A program made the position numbers and the translations under genes. A DNA stretch of 64,000 nucleotides from Dehalococcoidia bacterium (GTDB lineage Bacteria > Chloroflexota > Dehalococcoidia > Lucifugimonadales > UBA826): positions 176,669 to 240,668 of the forward strand of contig JAPYSB010000001.1 in assembly GCA_029936675.1 (NCBI GenBank), given 5' to 3'. Every line of letters begins with the position of its first letter. Within the stretch, counting starts at the first letter, position 1. The notes under the pieces are model-generated. The model did no database searches, had not been told where the DNA came from, and saw nothing but the letters and a program-made list of their open reading frames with translations. This document shows positions 4,221-26,525 of this stretch, one piece after another.

Positions 4221-5272
4221 TACAGGGCGAGGGCCTCCTCCACTGACTCGATTTGAGCCGCATATTCATTTAGGGAAACTGGTTCTATATCATTTGCTAT
4301 ATCTGGGTCTTTAAGACCGTTCCCAGTGATAACACATACAATGGTTTTACCTTCAAAAGATTCGTCCGAATTAGCCCTTTTTAATAAACCTGCCAGTGAC
4401 GCAGCAGAAGCCGGTTCACAAAAAATGCCCTCATCAGATGCTAACCTGCGATACGTACTGAGAATTTCAGCATCATCAACCTTGTCAATAAAGCCATTCG
4501 ATTCATCTCGAGCTTTCAAGGCTAATTCCCAACTAGCTGGATTGCCGATCCGTATAGCAGATGCTACCGTACGAGGTTCCTCTACAATAGCACCGTCAAC
4601 TATCGGGGAAGCCCCAGATGCTTGGTATCCATTCATCACAGGCAATTTATCTGAAAGTCCATTTTCAAAAGCTTCCTTAAAACCTTTCCAATATGCCGTG
4701 ATATTACCAGCGTTGCCAACTGGGATAAAGAGATGATCAGGTGCCATGCCGAGTTCTTCGACAATTTCGAAAGAAGCCGTTTTTTGACCTTCGATACGGT
4801 TAGGATTTAGTGAATTTACAAGCTCTACAGGATGCCTTTCACACAATTCACGAGCAATTTCCAGGGCTTTATCAAAATTACCATCAATCATTGCTATATG
4901 TGCACCATATGCAACCGCTTGAGCCAGTTTGCCTCTGGCCACATTTCCCTTTGGAACGATGAGGGTGGTTCTAAGTCCCAAATAGGCTCCATACGCAGCC
5001 GCAGAGGCACTAGTATTACCTGTTGAGGCACATGCTATCGAAGTGATCCCTTTTTCGACGGCTTTAGCTACTGCCACTACCATACCCCTGTCTTTAAATG
5101 AACCAGTCGGGTTGCAACCTTCAAGTTTAAAAAAAAGTGATTTGCAACCTATCTCATCCACTATATTTCTAGATTTAACCAGAGGAGTGTTTCCTTCCCC
5201 TAGAGAAAAAACAGGAGTCTTGGAATTAATAGGAAGGAATTTTTTATAAGTTTCGATGATACCTTTGCCCAT
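4220..5272 (-). CDS. thrC: Threonine synthase (PLP-dependent)
   Basis: A 350-residue fold-type II PLP enzyme that converts O-phosphohomoserine to threonine and phosphate. The Schiff-base lysine is K60 in NPTGSFKDRGM, followed by ASTGNTSASAAAYGA and the phosphate-binding PVGNAGNITAYWKG loop. The short form (about 350 residues, starting near LGEGNTPLV) is that of the thermophile/Gram-positive class rather than the 430-residue E. coli class. It is first in the minus-strand operon with folE. The start ATG has a weak upstream site; a TATAAT hexamer on the minus strand at 5398-5403 could be a -10 element, but no good -35 accompanies it. Confidence 0.95.
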   Translation of the reverse strand: MGKGIIETYKKFLPINSKTPVFSLGEGNTPLVKSRNIVDEIGCKSLFFKLEGCNPTGSFKDRGMVVAVAKAVEKGITSIACASTGNTSASAAAYGAYLGLRTTLIVPKGNVARGKLAQAVAYGAHIAMIDGNFDKALEIARELCERHPVELVNSLNPNRIEGQKTASFEIVEELGMAPDHLFIPVGNAGNITAYWKGFKEAFENGLSDKLPVMNGYQASGASPIVDGAIVEEPRTVASAIRIGNPASWELALKARDESNGFIDKVDDAEILSTYRRLASDEGIFCEPASAASLAGLLKRANSDESFEGKTIVCVITGNGLKDPDIANDIEPVSLNEYAAQIESVEEALAL

Positions 5273-5506
5273 TTTAAAAGGCCGTCACGTTCCTTCTATG
5301 CACATTTCTTTTCTGTATGTTCTAGGCATGCCCAATGCATTCAAATACTCTACAGTAGCAATACTTCTCTAGCAACACTATTGAGACGAGGTGATTTATT
5401 ATAAGACTAACGAAATTCAAAAGGCTTACTCATTTTATTTTTTTTGATCCGTGGTGAATTAACATTAAGCTAATATTTTTTCTAGACATTGATGGAGGAG
5501 TAACAA

Positions 5507-10056: not shown

Positions 10057-10731
10057 TCAGTGATTTTGAAATCTCGTTAAGGCGTTTGCAGCGGCTTCCG
10101 TTTCAGCCTTATTTATACTAGTACCCACCCCTGTACCCATAACTTTATCCCCAACCAACACCTCAACAATAAATGTGGGATTATGATCAGGCCCATCTTT
10201 AGATATCAACTTGTAATAGGGGGTGAATGATGTTTTTGACTGAACTAGGATTTGAAGATCTGTTTTAGAATCATTATGGCTTTTTACACAACTAGTATCA
10301 GCTGATTCAATGTTCAAGCTTTGCAAAACAAATTGACTGGCAACCGAATATCCTCTGTCTAGAAACAGTGCCCCAACCAGAGCCTCGAAGGCGTTAGCCA
10401 AATTGGAATCTTTATTTCTGCCTCCGGAGGCGTCTTCACCTTTGCCCAATAGCAAATGATTTCCCATACCTAACTCTCTAGCAACTCTTGCCAATGACAC
10501 ACCACTCACTATACTTGACCGCAGTTTAGTCAAATCTCCTTCAGTGAAATTTGGGTATTTTCCATACAACGACTGAGCTATCACAGCATCAATAACTGCA
10601 TCACCCAAAAATTCAAGCCGCTCATTAGATTGACAGTCGCGATTATTAGACTCGTTAACCCAGGAGGAATGCGTAAGGCTCAGACGGAATAGCTGTTTAT
10701 CTATAAAACTATGTTCGACCTTCGCCAGCAT
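10057..10731 (-). CDS. rnc: Ribonuclease III
   Basis: A 224-residue RNase III, which cuts double-stranded RNA in rRNA and mRNA processing. The catalytic signature NERLEFLGDAVIDAVIAQ lies at about residues 36-53, with the second acidic site in NAFEALVGALFLDRGY (about 112-127). The C-terminal double-stranded RNA-binding domain ends TSINKAETEAAANALTRF. Length is typical. It begins 22 bases after the end of the DsbA-like gene, with a GGAAAG site before the ATG, and is likely cotranscribed with it. Confidence 0.95.
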   Translation of the reverse strand: MLAKVEHSFIDKQLFRLSLTHSSWVNESNNRDCQSNERLEFLGDAVIDAVIAQSLYGKYPNFTEGDLTKLRSSIVSGVSLARVARELGMGNHLLLGKGEDASGGRNKDSNLANAFEALVGALFLDRGYSVASQFVLQSLNIESADTSCVKSHNDSKTDLQILVQSKTSFTPYYKLISKDGPDHNPTFIVEVLVGDKVMGTGVGTSINKAETEAAANALTRFQNH

Positions 10732-10753: not shown

Positions 10754-11383
10754 CTACACCGCCCCTTTGGGCCAAGGCGGCTGTGGTCGCTTCACTTCTC
10801 CTATGTAAGGCCTACTTTCAAACAATCCTAGAAAATGTTTAAAAGCATCCACAGATTCCTCCGTTGGAGGAATAAAGGTTTTTAGATAGGCGGATTGGCC
10901 ATTATCAAATATGAAGGTAGGAGTCCCGAAAGCTCCGTGTACCTCGACCGCCTCGGTATGATCGTTTGCAATTATATCTACAAGTTTTGGATCTTTCATA
11001 TCAGATTTAAATTGCTCAGCGTCCAAGCCACATTCTTCGGCCAACCGAATGAAAAGAGAATCGTCGTTCAATGGAGCTCTTGAGCCACCATGTCTTTCAG
11101 TAAGCAAGGCCAAGAAAAATTTATCGAAAAGCTCCACCCCTTGCCTCTTGGCCGCCTCCCCTGCTATCGATGCCATCAAAGATCTGGTAGAAGTGTAGTC
11201 TTCTTCTTGCCAGACCCTCCAATCGCCAGGATCTTTCGCGTTAATCTGTTGTAAAGAAAAATTCCTCCAATTCAGCTTTAGATCCTCACCATAGTGCTCT
11301 TTTACTTTATCCAACCACACGGCTGCATTGTAAACGTAGGGTCAAGCAAAATCGAAAAATACATCGAATTCCATCTTATTCAT
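10754..11383 (-). CDS. DsbA/FrnE-like oxidoreductase, putative selenoprotein (TGA at the active-site Cys)
   Basis: Read conventionally, the gene would start only at GTG 11320. However, the same frame continues upstream through a single TGA (11344-11342) to ATG 11383, which has a GGAG ribosome-binding site 6 bases away. The N-terminus then reads MNKMEFDVFFDFA-U-PYVYNAAVWLDKV, with U at residue 14. The TGA falls exactly where DsbA/FrnE-like thioredoxin-fold proteins have the catalytic Cys of DxxCPWxxxxxxW. The rest of the fold is intact over 209 residues, including the cis-Pro GTPTF near residue 150. The partner position four residues into the motif is Val, so the site is UxxV, not CxxC. A SECIS-like hairpin follows (11301-11334). 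Alternatives are a nonsense mutation or a sequencing error turning TGC/TGT into TGA. It is upstream of rnc. Confidence 0.75.
11301..11334 (-). promoter_or_regulatory. Putative bacterial SECIS element within the DsbA-like gene
   Basis: Read on the minus strand just after the in-frame TGA, UUUAC pairs with GUAAA (5 bp). Above an internal loop that can add two A-U pairs, CAGCC pairs with GGUUG (5 bp including one G-U). These enclose a GUGU tetraloop at 11320-11317. The apical loop starts 21 bases after the TGA and begins with G. This matches the published description of bacterial SECIS elements, in which a small G-starting apical loop lies roughly 16-37 bases from the UGA. The fold was done by eye, and SelB binding is inferred. 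Confidence 0.6.
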
Positions 11384-11492
11384 AGTTGTCTCCAGTCCTT
11401 GTGAGTCCACTCTCGCTAGTTTACCTTAACTCGGCCAAAATGATACAACTAGACCTTAATACTAAGATGTCTAACCTTGCAACACTAGCTGG

Positions 11493-11618: not shown

Positions 11619-13052
11619 ATGGCAAACGAATCAGCAGAATTACTTAAGTTAATGAAAGACAACGGGTGCGATATATTGGACCTAAAGTTTACTGATTTAC
11701 CTGGGTCGTGGCAACATTTTTCTGTTCCCATAAGTGAGGTAGGTGACTCATTAGTGAACAATGGTGTTGGGTTTGACGGATCAAGTATCAGGGGATTCCA
11801 ATCAATTGACAAATCCGATATGTTGATAGTCCCGGACGCCCCTACAGCGAAGGTAGACCCGTTCTTTAAGAGCACAGTGACCTGCATTGCAGATATCAAA
11901 GACCCGGTTTCAGGTGAAAACTACACCAGAGATCCGAGAAATGTGGCCAAGAAAGCCGAAGCGTACCTAAAAAGTACCGGGATTGGCGATGATTCCTTCT
12001 GGGGACCAGAAGTAGAATTTTTCATATTTGACTCAGTTAGATTCGGATATGAGTCAAACCATGGATTTCACGAGGTCAATTCTGATGAAGGAATATGGAA
12101 CTCTGGAAGCGAGTACATGCTGGATGGAGAAACACTCAATAAAGGAAACAGGCCGAGATACAAAGGTGGCTATTTTCCAGTATCTCCGGTAGATACTGCG
12201 CAAGATCTAAGAAGTGAAATGGTAAGAAGCCTTGTAAACAATTTTGGTATGAGGATAGAGGCCCAACACCATGAAGTAGGTACTGGAGGCCAGGCCGAAA
12301 TAGACATGCGGTTTGGCCCTCTGTTAGAAATTGCCGACAATGTGATGACATATAAATATGCAGTCCGTAATGTTGCCAAACAACATGGAAAGGTAGTGAC
12401 TTTCATGCCCAAGCCGCTATTCAATGATAATGGGACAGGTATGCATGTCCACCAATCAATATGGAAAAATGGAGAACCTTTATTCGCAGGAAACGAATAC
12501 GCCGGACTATCTCAAATGGCCCTCAACTATATCGGTGGTCTAATAAAGCATGGAAAGGCCTTAATGGCATTGGCAGCCCCAACAACGAATTCCTACAGAA
12601 GATTAACACCAGGGTTCGAAGCCCCAACAATTTTGGCGTTGTCAGCTAGAAACCGGTCAGCTGCATGCAGGATCCCGATGTATTTCAATGACCCTGGTGC
12701 AAAAAGAGTAGAATTTAGATCGGCAGACCCGACTTGTAATCCTTACCTTACGTTTGCTGCTATGTTGATGGCAGGACTCGACGGGATAGAGAACGGCTAC
12801 AGCCCAGGGGAGCCGCTTGAACAAGACCTTTTTGAACTGTCTGCTGAAGAAACGGCAGCTTTCCCTCAAGTACCGGGAAGTCTCGATGAGGCTCTTAAAG
12901 CTTTACAGGATGACCATGAGTTTTTGCTCAAAGGTGGGGTATTTACGGAAGATGTCATTGAAAATTGGATAAGCTTTAAGACTGAAAATGATGTCGATCC
13001 AGTGAGATTGCGACCGCATCCCTATGAATTCCACCTTTCATTCGATGCATAA
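11619..13052 (+). CDS. glnA: Glutamine synthetase type I (GSI-beta-like, adenylylation Tyr replaced by Phe)
   Basis: A 477-residue glutamine synthetase that makes glutamine from glutamate, ammonia and ATP. Motifs include VGFDGSSIRGFQSIDKSDM (about residues 48-66), the KGGYFPVSPVDTAQDLRSEM segment typical of the long beta form, the EAQHHEVGTGGQAEID metal site and NSYRRLTPGFEAP. The C-terminal region aligns without gaps to the adenylylation loop of enterobacterial GlnA (NLYDLPPEE), but here reads DLFELSAEE. Phe405 (codon 12831-12833) therefore replaces the modified Tyr, and adenylylation control should be absent. A GGAGG site precedes the ATG and a strong terminator follows, so it is probably monocistronic. 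Confidence 0.95.
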   Translation: MANESAELLKLMKDNGCDILDLKFTDLPGSWQHFSVPISEVGDSLVNNGVGFDGSSIRGFQSIDKSDMLIVPDAPTAKVDPFFKSTVTCIADIKDPVSGENYTRDPRNVAKKAEAYLKSTGIGDDSFWGPEVEFFIFDSVRFGYESNHGFHEVNSDEGIWNSGSEYMLDGETLNKGNRPRYKGGYFPVSPVDTAQDLRSEMVRSLVNNFGMRIEAQHHEVGTGGQAEIDMRFGPLLEIADNVMTYKYAVRNVAKQHGKVVTFMPKPLFNDNGTGMHVHQSIWKNGEPLFAGNEYAGLSQMALNYIGGLIKHGKALMALAAPTTNSYRRLTPGFEAPTILALSARNRSAACRIPMYFNDPGAKRVEFRSADPTCNPYLTFAAMLMAGLDGIENGYSPGEPLEQDLFELSAEETAAFPQVPGSLDEALKALQDDHEFLLKGGVFTEDVIENWISFKTENDVDPVRLRPHPYEFHLSFDA

Positions 13053-13068
13053 TTGACCCAGTTATCCT

Positions 13069-13112
13069 AAAATGTGTCGCTCTTTTCTTGGAGCGACACA
13101 TTTTTATTTTTG
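13069..13112 (+). terminator. Rho-independent terminator after the first glnA
   Basis: A 14-bp perfect stem, AAAATGTGTCGCTC against GAGCGACACATTTT, encloses an 8-base loop (13083-13090). It is followed by a T-rich tail (TTTTTATTTTT). It begins 17 bases after the glnA stop and separates the two glutamine synthetase genes. Confidence 0.9.
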
Positions 13113-13136
13113 CCAGTGGCCATGGGTGAAATTTGT

Positions 13137-13165
13137 TTGACACTTTTTTCACAAGTGATTATTCT
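13137..13165 (+). promoter_or_regulatory. Sigma70-type promoter of the second glutamine synthetase
   Basis: A perfect -35 TTGACA (13137-13142) is followed by a 17-base spacer and a -10 TATTCT (13160-13165). It lies between the upstream terminator and the ATG at 13237, which has an AAAGGA ribosome-binding site 7 bases away. This fits independent transcription of the glnA2-gltB-gltD unit. Confidence 0.7.
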
Positions 13166-13236
13166 TGAATGCCTATATTTTTCCAAATTACAAGAACAAA
13201 TAGAAGACGGCAAACCCCTCCTAAAAGGATTTCCCA

Positions 13237-14574
13237 ATGCTGGAAAGAAACAGTGAGGCAGTTGAATACGTTCTCCGAGAAGCCAGAGAAAACGACGTAA
13301 AATTCATACGCCTTTGGTTTTCCGACATATTGGGTAATATTAAAGGCTTTGCTATCACGGTGGAAGAGTTAGAGAACGCCCTTACGAGAGGCATGGGATT
13401 TGATGGATCTGCAATTGAAGGATATGCCCGGGCAGATGAAAGAGACCTATATGCCCTACCCGACCCAACCACTTTTAGTCTTTTACCTTGGAGACCCAAA
13501 ACAAATGCTGTCGCCAAGATGTTTTGCGACATCATCACACCGGATGATAGGGAATTTGAAGGAGACCCCCGAGCCGTTCTCAAAAAAACACTTAACCGAG
13601 CATCTGAGAAAGGCTATACTTACTATGTTTCTCCTGAACTTGAGTATTTTTACTTCAAAGATTCAACCTCAACGGTAGGGCTAGACAATAGTGGTTACTT
13701 TGATCAAGATGCTCCTGACATAGGCACTGATCTAAGACGAGATACGGTTCTAACGTTGGAAGAACTAGGTATACCAGTAGAATCGAGCCACCACGAATCA
13801 GCGCCAAGCCAACATGAAATAGACTTGCGACATACTGATGCTCTAACAATGGCTGATTCTGTCATGACATATAGACTGGTCGTAAAAGAGATAGCAATGA
13901 ACAACGGATATCATGCTTCTTTTATGCCTAAACCGGTAGCAGGAATTAACGGCAATGGAATGCATACCCATATGTCCCTCTTTAAAGGGGATCAAAATGT
14001 GTTCTATGGAGAGGAAGATGAGAATCACCTATCAACCACAGCAAAACATTTTTGTGCCGGACTTATGAAACATGCCAGAGAAATAACTCTGGTAACGAAC
14101 CAGTGGGTCAATTCTTACAAAAGGTTGGTTCCGGCATATGAGGCACCAACCTACATAACATGGGCAGAGGTCAACAGATCGGATTTAATAAGAATTCCCT
14201 CCTTTAAACCGGATCGCAAATCCTCTAGAAGAATTGAGTATCGAGCGCCCGACCCGTCCTGTAACCCGTATTTGGCCTTCAGTGTAATGCTTGCGGCTGG
14301 GTTAGAAGGCATCAACAATAAATATGAGATTCCCGCCTCGTTAACTAAGAGTGTTCATGAAATGTCGGAAGATGAAAGAACTTCTCTAGGGATAGAATCT
14401 CTACCTGGAAACTTATGGGAAGCTATACAGGTGACCGAGGGGAGTGACTTGGTCAGAAAAACCTTAGGCGACAGTGTATTCAATAGTTTCATTGAAAATA
14501 AAAAAATAGAATGGAACAGGTATTCTTCACAAGTTTCAGCATATGAAGTAGAACGTTACTTACCCATTCTTTAA
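13237..14574 (+). CDS. glnA: Glutamine synthetase type I (GSI-alpha-like)
   Basis: A 445-residue glutamine synthetase of the shorter alpha (Bacillus-like) form, lacking the beta-type insertion. It has MGFDGSAIEGYARADERDLYALPD, the metal site ESSHHESAPSQHEIDLR, NGNGMHTHMSLF, NSYKRLVPAYEAP and the C-terminal end AYEVERYLPIL typical of GSI-alpha. The region equivalent to the adenylylation loop reads SVHEMSEDER, so there is no modifiable Tyr. It is only about 58% the position-by-position kin of the neighbouring glnA by my rough reading of motifs and is not a recent duplicate. It starts 72 bases after its own promoter and leads into gltB with a 31-base gap, so glutamine made here may feed glutamate synthase directly. 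Confidence 0.93.
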   Translation: MLERNSEAVEYVLREARENDVKFIRLWFSDILGNIKGFAITVEELENALTRGMGFDGSAIEGYARADERDLYALPDPTTFSLLPWRPKTNAVAKMFCDIITPDDREFEGDPRAVLKKTLNRASEKGYTYYVSPELEYFYFKDSTSTVGLDNSGYFDQDAPDIGTDLRRDTVLTLEELGIPVESSHHESAPSQHEIDLRHTDALTMADSVMTYRLVVKEIAMNNGYHASFMPKPVAGINGNGMHTHMSLFKGDQNVFYGEEDENHLSTTAKHFCAGLMKHAREITLVTNQWVNSYKRLVPAYEAPTYITWAEVNRSDLIRIPSFKPDRKSSRRIEYRAPDPSCNPYLAFSVMLAAGLEGINNKYEIPASLTKSVHEMSEDERTSLGIESLPGNLWEAIQVTEGSDLVRKTLGDSVFNSFIENKKIEWNRYSSQVSAYEVERYLPIL

Positions 14575-14605
14575 TGAATGGGCAAGGCAAAACATTGGTA
14601 AATAG

Positions 14606-17600
14606 ATGAAATCACAATATGAAAATAAGAATTTAAAAAAGCCCGTTAAACAAGGGCTTTATGACCCCATATTTGAGCATGATGCCTGTGGGGTTGGAAT
14701 GGTTGCCAACATAAAAGGAAAACAGTCTCATTCCATAGTATCGCAAGGATTAGAAGCCTTATCTAATCTGGCACATAGAGGGGCTGCAGGTGCAGATCCT
14801 GAGACAGGGGATGGCGCGGGAATTCTTATACAGATGCCTCATGATTTTTTTAAATCAGAACTGTCATCCATGGGATGCCATTTACCCGATCTGGGCCAAT
14901 ACGGGGTGGGAATGGCATTTTTACCATCTGACAAAGATCAAACGGAGTCAAGTAGATCTCTAGTTGAGGAATGTGTTTCAAAACAAGGTTATGACCTTCT
15001 TGCATGGAGGCCAGTCCCCGTAGACCCCGAAAAGATAGGAGTCCTTGCAAACCGAGACCGTCCTTACATAACTCAATTTTTTGTTACTCCCAAGGAAAGG
15101 GCTCCTGAAAACATTGACAGGGATTTGTATCTCCTGAGAAGAACTATTGAGTCTTCAATCGACGTAGCCGCTTTAGAAGGAGCTGACGATTTCTATATAT
15201 GCTCATTGTCTTCGAGTACTATAGTTTATAAAGGCCTGGTAATGGCTGAACAGCTAGAAGATTTTTACAAAGATCTAACTGATTCAAGTCTCATCAGTTC
15301 ATTCGCCCTCGTACATTCCAGATTTAGTACAAACACTTTAGGCAGTTGGAAACTAGCACATCCATATAGATTCATAATCCACAATGGTGAAATAAACACC
15401 GTCCGTGGCAACACCAATTGGATGTCGGCTAGAGAACAGGTTTTCAAATCAACAAATCCAGATATAAATATAGGTAACCTGGTTCCCGTTATTAAACCTG
15501 GTCAAAGTGACACTGCTGCTCTTGATAACGCGCTTGAACTCCTCCTTGCTACCGGGAGAAGCATAGAGCATTCAATGATGATGTTGATACCCGAGGCTTG
15601 GGGTGATCATATACCGATGGACCAGTCGAAAAAAGATTTCTACGAATATCACTCAAGCATGATGGAAGCTTGGGACGGGCCTGCTCTTGTGATAGGAACG
15701 GATGGGACAAAAGTCTGCGCAGTATTAGACCGCAACGGCCTTAGGCCTTGCCGCTACTTAGTAACCACTGATGATGTGTTAGTAATGGCCTCTGAAACTG
15801 GTGTCATTGACGTCCCTCCCGAGAAAGTTCTTTATAAGGAGAGAATCTACCCTGGCCGGATGTTTCTATTAGACACAAAAAAAGGAGAGCTAGTCAACGA
15901 CCGCGATTTGAAAACGGGCTTAGCCGGTTCCAAACCATATGGGGAATGGCTTTCTAATAATAGGATATTTCTAGAAGATTTACCCGAGCTGGTAAAGGCA
16001 CCCGATGAAAAAATCATCGACATCAAAAAACAACAGGGCACATTCGGATACACATTAGAAGATCTGAGAATGATTTTAGAGCCTATGGCTTTAAATGGGT
16101 ATGAACCTACCGGGTCGATGGGAAACGATGCTCCTCTAGCATTTCTCTCGGACCATAACCCCATACTCTTTAACTATTTCAAACAACTATTCGCCCAGGT
16201 CAGCAATCCGCCTCTGGACGCAATAAGGGAAGAGCTAGTTACCTCTCTAAGGGCCACAATAGGCGAGGAAAGAAACCTTTTTTCCGAAACTCCTGAACAC
16301 TGCAGGCAAATCACTCTACGGCAACCAGTAATTACAGATTCTGATCTTTCCCGTATTAAAGCGTCATCATCGGAAAATTTGACTTCCAAAACCATATCCA
16401 CCCTGTTTGACATCGGTAGTGCTAATGGCTTCAAGGATTCCTTAAAGCGGATTGTAAAAGAAGCGTCAATGGCTGTGAAAGAAGGTCATTCAATACTAAT
16501 CCTGTCTGATAAAGGCGTTGATGAATCACACGCACCGTTACCAAGTTTACTGGCCACCTCAACAGTACATCACCATCTAATTAGAGAAGGAGAGAGAGTA
16601 AAAGTAGGAATTGTTGTAGAAACAGGCGAGGCGCGGGAAGTGGCACATTTTGCGGCATTAATAGGCTACGGAGCTGGGGCAATAAATCCTTATTTGGCTA
16701 TAGCGACAATTAAAAATCAAATAACTCTCAAAGAGTTTGAGCATGACATATCTGAAGATGAGGCAATCTCCAACTATTTAGCTGCATCTCATAAAGGCAT
16801 CTTAAAGATAATGTCGAAAATGGGCATATCGACGATACAAAGCTACAGAGGAGCTCAGATCTTTGAGGCTGTTGGATTAAACCAAACCATGATAGATAAC
16901 TATTTCACCTGGACTCCCTCCAGAATAGGTGGAATTGGGATAGAAGAAATCGCGAAGGAATATAAAACCCGGCACGAGTCCAGTTATGGTTCTCATAAAA
17001 ATTCTTCCGATTTAGATATTTCACAAGGTGGGCAATACCAATGGAGGAGAGATGGCGAATTTCATATGTGGAATCCAAATACTATCGCCTCTCTTCAACA
17101 TGCGGTCAGGGAAAACAACTGGGACAGTTATGAACAGTTCGCACATTTCGTCGACCAAGAAACTACAAGGCTCAGCACTATAAGGGGTCTGTTAGATTTC
17201 AAAAATTCTGCGAACCCAATTCCTGTCGATGATGTTGAACCCGCAAAGGAAATAGTTAAAAGATTCGCCACCGGTGCCATATCGCTGGGGTCGATCAGCC
17301 GGGAAGCCCATGAAACCATGGCAATAGCAATGAACAGGATACAAGCTCGGAGTAATACCGGTGAAGGTGGTGAAGATTACTCTAGATACACCCTAGACCC
17401 CAACGGGGATTCGAGAAGCAGTGCGATCAAACAGGTCGCCTCTGGAAGATTTGGAGTTACCATCAATTATTTGGCTAATGCAAAAGATATCCAAATTAAA
17501 ATGGCCCAAGGTTCCAAACCGGGAGAAGGTGGGCAGCTTCCCGGCCACAAAGTAGATGAATATATTGGTGGAGTCAGAAATTCCACTCCGGGGGTGGAGC

Positions 17601-19162
17601 TTATATCTCCGCCACCTCATCATGACATCTATTCAATTGAAGATCTCGCTCAATTAATACACGATTTAAAAAATGCAAATCCAGAAGCTAGAATCCACGT
17701 AAAACTAGTTGCGGAGGCTGGTGTAGGAACCATCGCAGCAGGCGTTTCCAAAGGACACGGTGATGTCGTGCTAATAAGTGGGGACACGGGTGGAACGGGA
17801 GCATCCCCAGAATCATCAATAAAACACGCTGGCTTGCCCTGGGAATTAGGAATAGCTGAAACTCAGCAAGTACTAGTAATGAATGATCTCCGAGGTCGCA
17901 TCGTGGTACAGGCCGATGGTCAAATTAAAACCGGACGAGATGTGGCAATTGCATGCTTGCTGGGAGCAGAAGAATTCGGACTGGCTACTGGACCATTAAT
18001 AGCTTTGGGTTGCATCATGTTAAGAAAATGCCATCTAAACACCTGCTCGGTAGGCATAGCTACACAGGATCCAGAATTACGCGAAAAATTCGCAGGAAAA
18101 CCGGAACACGTAATTAATTACTTTTTCTTCATAGCAGAACAATTGAGAAAAATAATGGCTGATCTAGGGATCAAGACTGTGGACGACATGATTGGACGCA
18201 CAGATCTTCTAGATAAAAGAAGCCTAATAGAACATTGGAAAACAGAAGGGGTAGATTTTAGTCAATTACTTCATATGCCAGAGGTACCAAAAGGAGTCGC
18301 AAGGCATAGGGTGGTCGATCAGGACCACTCGCTAGAAAAAGCACTAGATAATGATCTCATAAAAGAGGCGTCAGTCTCAATAAAGACAGGTAAACCTATT
18401 ACGATCACAAAGGAAATCAATAACTCTCATAGGACCGTAGGAACTACATTAAGCCATATGGTTGCAAAAAAATATGGTGAGGAAGGATTACCGGACGATA
18501 CTATCTCACTAGATTTTACTGGTTCTGGAGGGCAAAGTTTCGCAGCATTTCTCAGTAAAGGGGTTTCCATTGACCTTAAAGGCGACGCTAATGATTATTT
18601 TTGTAAAGGGCTTTCTGGCGGTAAGGTAATAGTCCGACCACATGAAAAATCCACCTTTAATCCGGAAGAAAACATAATTATTGGTAACGTAGCTTTGTAT
18701 GGCGCGACAGGTGGTCTGGTCTTAATTAGAGGTATTGCCGGGGAGCGATTTGCTGTGAGAAACAGTGGTGCCGAAGCCGTTGTCGAAGGAGTTGGTGATC
18801 ATGGATGCGAATATATGACTAGAGGCAAAGTAGTCGTCCTCGGGCCAACTGGACGCAATTTTGCTGCGGGAATGAGTGGTGGAGAAGCCTATGTATTTGA
18901 CGAAAGTGGGAAATTTGAATCTATTTGCAACAAGAGTTTGGTTAGTTTGGAACCAGTATCAGAAGAAAAAGATTTGGATGACCTCAAGAGGCTGATTGAA
19001 CTGCACAAAAAACACACTGGAAGTAATAATGCTGCGAGAATTCTCTCAAATTGGGAATCTATGATTACAAGCTTTGTGAAAGTCATGCCAAACGACTACA
19101 AGAGAATTTTAGCAGAAAGAGAAGTTAACCAAAACAAACATACTGTGAACGCTAATGGGTAA
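14606..19162 (+). CDS. gltB: Glutamate synthase large subunit
   Basis: The 1518-residue large subunit of glutamate synthase, which converts glutamine plus 2-oxoglutarate to two glutamates. A short propeptide ends before the catalytic Cys (C28 in HDACGVGMVA) of the class II amidotransferase domain. The central and FMN-binding synthase domains follow (KPGEGGQLPGHKV, then the SGDTGGTGASP loop). The iron-sulfur cysteines lie in CIMLRKCHLNTC (C-x5-C-x4-C). The C-terminal beta-helix GXGXG domain ends near residue 1450. Length is canonical. Its stop overlaps gltD by 8 bases, so the two are translationally coupled. Confidence 0.97.
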   Translation: MKSQYENKNLKKPVKQGLYDPIFEHDACGVGMVANIKGKQSHSIVSQGLEALSNLAHRGAAGADPETGDGAGILIQMPHDFFKSELSSMGCHLPDLGQYGVGMAFLPSDKDQTESSRSLVEECVSKQGYDLLAWRPVPVDPEKIGVLANRDRPYITQFFVTPKERAPENIDRDLYLLRRTIESSIDVAALEGADDFYICSLSSSTIVYKGLVMAEQLEDFYKDLTDSSLISSFALVHSRFSTNTLGSWKLAHPYRFIIHNGEINTVRGNTNWMSAREQVFKSTNPDINIGNLVPVIKPGQSDTAALDNALELLLATGRSIEHSMMMLIPEAWGDHIPMDQSKKDFYEYHSSMMEAWDGPALVIGTDGTKVCAVLDRNGLRPCRYLVTTDDVLVMASETGVIDVPPEKVLYKERIYPGRMFLLDTKKGELVNDRDLKTGLAGSKPYGEWLSNNRIFLEDLPELVKAPDEKIIDIKKQQGTFGYTLEDLRMILEPMALNGYEPTGSMGNDAPLAFLSDHNPILFNYFKQLFAQVSNPPLDAIREELVTSLRATIGEERNLFSETPEHCRQITLRQPVITDSDLSRIKASSSENLTSKTISTLFDIGSANGFKDSLKRIVKEASMAVKEGHSILILSDKGVDESHAPLPSLLATSTVHHHLIREGERVKVGIVVETGEAREVAHFAALIGYGAGAINPYLAIATIKNQITLKEFEHDISEDEAISNYLAASHKGILKIMSKMGISTIQSYRGAQIFEAVGLNQTMIDNYFTWTPSRIGGIGIEEIAKEYKTRHESSYGSHKNSSDLDISQGGQYQWRRDGEFHMWNPNTIASLQHAVRENNWDSYEQFAHFVDQETTRLSTIRGLLDFKNSANPIPVDDVEPAKEIVKRFATGAISLGSISREAHETMAIAMNRIQARSNTGEGGEDYSRYTLDPNGDSRSSAIKQVASGRFGVTINYLANAKDIQIKMAQGSKPGEGGQLPGHKVDEYIGGVRNSTPGVELISPPPHHDIYSIEDLAQLIHDLKNANPEARIHVKLVAEAGVGTIAAGVSKGHGDVVLISGDTGGTGASPESSIKHAGLPWELGIAETQQVLVMNDLRGRIVVQADGQIKTGRDVAIACLLGAEEFGLATGPLIALGCIMLRKCHLNTCSVGIATQDPELREKFAGKPEHVINYFFFIAEQLRKIMADLGIKTVDDMIGRTDLLDKRSLIEHWKTEGVDFSQLLHMPEVPKGVARHRVVDQDHSLEKALDNDLIKEASVSIKTGKPITITKEINNSHRTVGTTLSHMVAKKYGEEGLPDDTISLDFTGSGGQSFAAFLSKGVSIDLKGDANDYFCKGLSGGKVIVRPHEKSTFNPEENIIIGNVALYGATGGLVLIRGIAGERFAVRNSGAEAVVEGVGDHGCEYMTRGKVVVLGPTGRNFAAGMSGGEAYVFDESGKFESICNKSLVSLEPVSEEKDLDDLKRLIELHKKHTGSNNAARILSNWESMITSFVKVMPNDYKRILAEREVNQNKHTVNANG

Positions 19163-25468: not shown

Positions 25469-26350
25469 CTATTTAGTAACCAGCATTTTTCTCATAACTG
25501 TCATAAATTTTTCGGCCGGATCTGATATGTTTTTCCCTGGGAGCGTCAGTATCCCAGCCTGGTCTACTGGCAAAAAATTAGCGAGCGAAACCATACCAAG
25601 CTTGGATAAATCATCGTCTTCGATAGCCAACCTTGGCCCTATTGAAACTCCCATACCAAGGGCCACGTATTTTTTTATCATGTCCATGCTCTCTAATTCC
25701 ATAATCACCTCATATTTGAGAGCGTTTTTCTGAAGCTGTTCCTCTAGAATGGTCCGAGTATAAGTACCCTTAGCCATTAAAATTAAAGGATACCTAGCTA
25801 TTGGATCCAGTGACTGAATGTTTCTTGAGAGCAATTCGTGGCCTTTTGGCGCTATAAGCACCCTCTCATAAAGAAATAAAGGCTCAAAATGTAAATCATC
25901 CCCTCTTTCCGGATGTTGTATTATGCCAATGTCTACTTCCCCTGTCCGTACCAAATTGGTTACTTCATTTCTATTGGCTGACTGAATTCTCAAATACACC
26001 GCCGGATACAGCTCGTTAAATTTCTGTACTACACTAAGTAAAGTGTGCGGAATAATATCTGGAGTCGATGCAATAGTTACTGGACCCCTTTCCTCTGCCA
26101 ATGAAATTATCGATGATAAAGAATCTATTCCCTCCAGAAGAGGATTGGAAAGTTCATATATCGTCTGGCCAGTCAAGGTAAGCCGAATAGGTCTCGTCAC
26201 TCTGTCGAATAGAGGAACTGACAATTCTCTCTCCAGCTTCTTAATGTGAGTCGTGACAGTCGGCTGGCCAATATTCAGTTCTTTTGCAGCTTTAGAAATG
26301 CTTCGGAGTCTGGCAGCGGCAACAAAGCTCTTTAATTCTCTCAGTTCCAT
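25469..26350 (-). CDS. LysR-family transcriptional regulator
   Basis: A 293-residue LysR regulator. The N-terminal winged helix-turn-helix (MELRELKSFVAAARLRSISKAAKELNIGQPTVTTHIKKLE, residues 1-40 approximately) precedes a linker helix. Two periplasmic-binding-like effector lobes follow (about 90-293). Substrate lobe features such as VDIGIIQHPERGDDLHFEPLFLYERVLIAPKGHEL resemble CysB/Cbl-like and related sulfur or aromatic regulators, but the ligand cannot be called. It is divergent from ftsY with 175 bases between, an AT-rich stretch that may hold its autoregulatory site, although no clear T-N11-A operator stood out. Confidence 0.9.
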   Translation of the reverse strand: MELRELKSFVAAARLRSISKAAKELNIGQPTVTTHIKKLERELSVPLFDRVTRPIRLTLTGQTIYELSNPLLEGIDSLSSIISLAEERGPVTIASTPDIIPHTLLSVVQKFNELYPAVYLRIQSANRNEVTNLVRTGEVDIGIIQHPERGDDLHFEPLFLYERVLIAPKGHELLSRNIQSLDPIARYPLILMAKGTYTRTILEEQLQKNALKYEVIMELESMDMIKKYVALGMGVSIGPRLAIEDDDLSKLGMVSLANFLPVDQAGILTLPGKNISDPAEKFMTVMRKMLVTK

Positions 26351-26525
26351 GAGGTTTTTCTCTCACTTTATTCGAAATCTTGATGCATCATAGTGTACAT
26401 TATTTGGAAGCGCCATATAAATAAAGGACTTAACCATAGTTTCCGATATAGGATAAAATTCCGTAACGGCTTTTGATATTTAAATCCATTCTGATGACCG
26501 TTTTAAAGTTTGATAAATATTACAA

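Follow-up and report, generated by a model that had tools for sequence, protein, structure and literature searches.

DsbA-like selenoproteins have been predicted before, and two surveys are relevant as far as their accessible text goes. A 2008 survey of ocean metagenomes (GOS) includes a selenoprotein family called "DsbA 3", which has the domain pfam01323, the motif UxxV and 5 Sec sequences (PMC2398784). A 2026 review of prokaryotic selenoproteins includes a "DsbA-like protein form 2" with the domain PF01323, the motif DxxUP and the entry MDP6049977.1, the record of which is labelled crotonase/enoyl-CoA hydratase (PMC13188914). DR2335 of Deinococcus radiodurans contains a single conserved Cys and has no reported function, and FrnE contains a CxxC and in addition a C-terminal CxxxxC (PMC8945050).

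The window, i.e., the whole stretch of 64,000 nucleotides that was analyzed, contains a gene that belongs in this context. On the minus strand a frame opens with the ATG at 11383-11381, meets one TGA at 11344-11342, and has the TAG at 10756-10754 as its next stop (Table 1). These coordinates confirm the preliminary description, which had reported an ATG with a GGAG ribosome-binding site, a single TGA and an otherwise open frame to position 10754. When the TGA is read through, the product has 209 residues with the TGA as residue 14, and the Pfam family DSBA (PF01323) matches residues 7-162 of this product with an E value of 2.2e-17. The mechanical list of open reading frames gives a protein of 188 aa, which starts at the GTG 11320. 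The codons upstream of the TGA were analyzed within the genus, and for codons -12 to -1 a pS of 0.474, a pN of 0.056 and thus a pN/pS of 0.12 were obtained, indicating that these codons are translated in this frame and are selected as protein. Therefore, the downstream start at GTG 11320 is not credible. The starts of the homologues are almost always ATG and are located about 13 codons 5' of the TGA, and the possibility that all homologues begin downstream of the TGA, which the preliminary description had named as a counterargument, does not apply. At the other end of the protein, the tail residues E196, K198, P200 and P202-P205 are invariant in 44 sequences.

Table 1. Positions of the features of the predicted selenoprotein locus in the window.
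Feature	Position	Strand	Description and basis
CDS, predicted DsbA-like selenoprotein	10754..11383	minus	209 aa, TAG stop; translation with TGA as Sec, PF01323, AlphaFold model
TGA codon, predicted selenocysteine 14	11342..11344	minus	catalytic position (D-x-x-U-P-x-V); column conservation
Ribosome-binding site GGAG	11390..11393	minus	sequence; purine-rich stretch before the start in most relatives
GTG	11318..11320	minus	start in the mechanical ORF call; not the real start; within the hairpin loop
Bacterial SECIS-like hairpin	11309..11328	minus	core stem 11321-11325 with 11312-11316; apical loop GUGU 11317-11320; window fold, pair counts, synonymous resampling
Pro155 codon	10919..10921	minus	cis-Pro-type position of the thioredoxin fold (FGTP); invariant in 44 sequences
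Conserved C-terminal tail EVKRPQPPWP	10769..10798	minus	invariant residues in 44 sequences
rnc (RNase III)	10057..10731	minus	22 bases 3' of the selenoprotein gene; Pfam; order and strand conserved in relatives

The occurrence of the gene was analyzed in 197 related genomes, and proteins with an E value of 1e-10 or better were regarded as homologues. A homologue was found in 141 genomes, with exactly one TGA in 131 of them and without any TGA in the other 10. The residue-14 column was placed in 90 copies and is occupied by TGA in 80 and by TGT or TGC in 10 of them, while no other codon and neither TAA nor TAG is found there. The Asp at -3 and the Pro at +1 of the Sec/Cys are invariant in these 90 copies, and 88 copies have Val and 2 have Ala as the fourth residue of the motif, which results in a UxxV motif. 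Residue 14 is the sole Cys/Sec in 57 of the 90 copies, and a conserved second Cys is absent from the family. Of the 25 loci that were read in other Chloroflexota, 7 have TGA and 18 have Cys in this column. The location of the TGA at the catalytic Cys column, as it had been proposed from the window alone, is thus borne out by the homologues. In addition, two genomes of one family contain tandem copies of the gene, and both copies have the TGA and the hairpin (L044:530-1180 and L044:1489-2118 in family f31; L043 likewise).

These results bear on the possibility that the TGA is a true stop codon or results from a sequencing or assembly error, in which case the gene would be a pseudogene or would start at the GTG 11320. 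Metagenome-assembled genomes do carry errors, and the mechanical call of 188 aa would fit such a start. However, the TGA occurs independently in the 131 related genomes, the codons upstream of it are under purifying selection and the start site is conserved. Furthermore, the GTG 11320 is situated within the conserved hairpin loop described below, and a start there would delete the catalytic residue, in agreement with the preliminary description, which had already regarded the GTG as the wrong start. A stop, an error or a pseudogene is therefore extremely improbable and, judged from the compared sequences, refuted in practice by the conservation.

A SECIS-like hairpin was found about 20 nt 3' of the TGA. 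When the U of the UGA is counted as 1, nucleotides 20-24 pair with nucleotides 29-33 around the loop GUGU, and G25 is present in the apical loop in 61 of 75 rows. For comparison, synonymous codons were drawn from each gene's own usage in 1000 trials. Among the 79 distinct TGA rows, 56 contain the complete 5-bp stem, while 8.7 +/- 2.8 were expected and the maximum of the resampling was 20. In the Cys rows it is present in 0 of 10, versus 0.3 expected. Also the mean stem energies differ, with -9.3 kcal/mol for the TGA rows versus -2.5 kcal/mol for the Cys rows. The codon entropy dips mainly at the offsets +6 to +11, and most adjacent codons use the normal range. In a set of 33 diverse rows, 86.1% of the cells are paired at the true register versus at most 63.6% when the register is slid, and changes on both sides are seen at four of the five stem pairs. 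RNAalifold predicted a weak stem for 75 rows and no pairs for the deliberately diverse 33-row set; the shortness of the stem and its register, which seems to slip in one lineage, are the probable reasons. The hairpin of the window has a z score of -2.1 alone and of -0.96 in a 49-nt context. Hairpin loops that cover nucleotide 26 were not a discriminating feature, as they occur in 73 of 75 TGA rows and in 9 of 10 Cys rows. The synonymous constraint, which is present in the TGA copies and absent in the Cys copies, is a predicted RNA-level SECIS signal.

The assembly from which the window originates, that of a marine bacterium of the SAR202 type, has a size of 2.19 Mb in 53 contigs and is 96% complete, and its genus-level relatives have been deposited as SAR202 cluster / Dehalococcoidia, Chloroflexota. 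The search for the Sec machinery, which had been suggested as a check, revealed all four components above the curated cut-offs. The tRNA-Sec was found with 65.5 bits, which is over the gathering score, and was also called by ARAGORN with the anticodon TCA. SelB was found with 351 bits (cut-off 242), SelA with 530 bits (cut-off 268) and SelD with 384 bits (cut-off 125). SelD carries an in-frame TGA of its own in the context SCAG-U-A (L017, about 2391-2405; the frame was read by eye) and is itself a predicted selenoprotein.

UGA read-through occurs in bacteria, and the TGA could be reassigned, e.g., to Trp, or could be read through non-specifically, in both cases without selenium. However, the column contains Cys in the homologues and never Trp, the genome has a full Sec system, the hairpin is specific to the TGA copies, and a scan of the window revealed no other plausible gene that is interrupted by a TGA. 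Reassignment or non-specific read-through is thus very improbable, if marginally less so than a genuine stop or an error. Two read-through candidates from the window, near 25472-26437 (LysR-type regulator) and 4223-5329 (threonine-synthase-like), resemble normal gene starts that directly follow a stop codon.

The presence of Sec or Cys was compared with the presence of SelA across the order. Among the related genomes that are at least 90% complete, none combines the TGA form with the absence of SelA; by elimination, the TGA-form genomes without detected SelA are ten, each at most 88% complete. Two genomes that are at least 90% complete contain the gene and lack SelA (G043 and G072), and both have the Cys form. 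SelA has been retained in seven of the ten Cys-form genomes, showing that the Cys form does not simply follow from a loss of the Sec system. A tree of 89 proteins requires that the residue changed four times between Sec and Cys, and well-supported branches enforce at least two of these changes. In this tree, the root of which is not fixed, the Cys copies fall within groups of Sec copies, and thus Sec looks ancestral in the order. All ten Cys-form genomes are small, i.e., 1.2-1.5 Mb, and are devoid of the 5-bp hairpin (loci L040, L041, L042 and L058-L064; genomes G009, G013, G015, G023, G059, G043, G072, G110, G167 and G177). The replacement of Sec by Cys seems to recur in reduced genomes.

The next gene on the same strand is rnc, and this is also the case in almost all relatives whose flanking sequence is long enough, in many families of the order. 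The two genes probably share an operon. In the f6/g11 lineage and in the other Chloroflexota classes that were read, rnc is not found beside the homologues (within 1.5 kb). Divergently from the selenoprotein gene, the region 11619-19162 contains two consecutive glutamine synthetase-like genes and, after them, a glutamate synthase large-subunit-like gene. The preliminary description had supposed that the gene beside rnc may be undescribed. This does not hold for the family as a predicted selenoprotein (PMC2398784, PMC13188914), but, as far as the literature search goes, it does hold for its occurrence in SAR202 and for the link with rnc. In the library searched, there was no paper describing selenoproteins in SAR202, no description of the family in SAR202 or of the rnc neighbourhood, and no functional test of the family; for SAR202 and selenocysteine, a general statement about SelA/SelB in symbionts of sponges was found. 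It is a tentative and rather unlikely idea that a one-selenol DsbA-like enzyme without resolving Cys, ancestral and widespread in the SAR202-type order, adjacent to rnc and with its Sec repeatedly swapped for Cys in the smallest genomes, would be functionally tied to RNase III. If this tie were true, the enzyme would represent a new redox activity that depends on selenium and may be linked to RNA processing.

The AlphaFold model of the protein has a mean pLDDT of 94.2. The protein has the features of the DsbA-like superfamily, i.e., the match to the PF01323 profile, a thioredoxin fold with a helical insertion, and a cis-Pro loop with the invariant Pro155, the cis geometry of which is suggested by the fold. 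The nearest solved structure is that of DR2335 (7dk9), with a Z score of 24.0 and an rmsd of 2.1 over 193 residues with 30% identity. Lower scores were obtained for Rv2466c (Z about 17.5), GST kappa (3rpp, Z 16.6), HCCA isomerase (2imd, Z 15.9) and FrnE (Z about 15.6). The protein has one catalytic Cys/Sec without a resolving Cys and has DR2335 as its closest fold, which places it in the DR2335-like group. The preliminary assignment as DsbA/FrnE-like can thus be kept for its DsbA-like part, but not for FrnE, which is characterized by a CxxC, while the nearest relatives are single-Cys proteins such as DR2335. Taken together, the frame, the column, the machinery, the hairpin, the selection and the fold make it highly probable that this is a selenoprotein gene that is decoded through a downstream hairpin, and we infer that Sec is indeed incorporated at the UGA.

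In the proposed mechanism, SelB and Sec-tRNA(Sec), guided by the hairpin about 20 nt downstream, would decode the UGA at 11344-11342 as selenocysteine. Sec14 would be located at the N-terminus of the first active-site helix (D-F-A-U-P-Y-V). As the protein lacks both a CxxC partner and any further conserved Cys, the selenol would serve by itself as the redox or nucleophilic centre. It would most likely form a mixed selenosulfide with a protein thiol or a small thiol, which would then be resolved by a second, outside thiol. The enzyme would accordingly be a thiol-disulfide reductase or a thiol-transferase of the DR2335/Rv2466c type, and it may be cytosolic, because no signal peptide is apparent in its sequence. 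The chances of this specific redox mechanism are about evenly balanced. Among the genes for small thiols, no BshA or MshC was found above the cut-off and no GCS2 was found in the genome; the MshC-like matches fall below the cut-off and are probably CysS. The selenocysteine could also serve a non-redox chemistry of the glutathione-transferase or isomerase type, as in GST kappa and HCCA isomerase, which would alter the mechanism but not the assignment as a selenoprotein. The single catalytic residue without a CxxC and the fold shared with both enzymes would be compatible with it. However, the single-Cys protein DR2335 is clearly closer in structure, glutathione synthesis of the GCS2 type was not found in the genome, and many of the selenoproteins that are uncharacterised have thiol oxidoreductases as homologues (PMC13188914). 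A non-redox role is thus unlikely, and a thiol-based redox function is preferred.

The gene adds a well-supported predicted selenoprotein to a major uncultured bacterial group. Current annotation would probably truncate the protein, because no NCBIfam model covers it and a standard ORF call places the start within the SECIS loop. The many TGA/Cys pairs, together with the Cys structure of DR2335, constitute a testable system for the contribution that selenium makes to a single-Cys DsbA-like enzyme, and the same system is also suited for the analysis of SECIS loss upon the replacement of Sec by Cys.

Several described proteins or families can be compared with the protein. With DR2335 (7dk9, 7dka), the best structural match, it shares the single catalytic position, as the Cys of DR2335 aligns to U14, and it differs in that DR2335 has Cys in place of Sec. 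Rv2466c, the mycobacterial mycothiol-dependent DsbA-like nitroreductase (4nxi, 4zil and 5xur, the last of which is its C22S mutant), also has the DsbA-like fold, but its active site is a CxxC instead of the UxxV found here, and MshC did not exceed the cut-off in this genome. The cytosolic FrnE of D. radiodurans (5cnw, 5xwh) again shares the fold, whereas the present family has UxxV and is devoid of a conserved second Cys. The model of the Rcas_1661 family seleno-lipoprotein (NF041057) gave 20.2 bits, below its curated NCBIfam cut-off of 190. The GOS family "DsbA 3", compared by its description, has the same domain and the same UxxV motif and originates from ocean metagenomes; it differs in that it comprises just five sequences and, in the accessible text, has no organism assigned. 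The present analysis adds the occurrence throughout the order in SAR202-type bacteria, the SECIS, the link with rnc and the repeated replacement of Sec by Cys in small genomes. "DsbA-like protein form 2", as described in the accessible text, belongs to the same Pfam family and has one Sec and the DxxUP motif, the D and P of which are invariant in the 90 copies analyzed here; the description names no taxon, SECIS or gene neighbourhood for it. Identity with this form is likely, the match being one of Pfam family and motif only, and by all computational evidence the gene adds a new and well-documented member to a selenoprotein family that had been predicted before.
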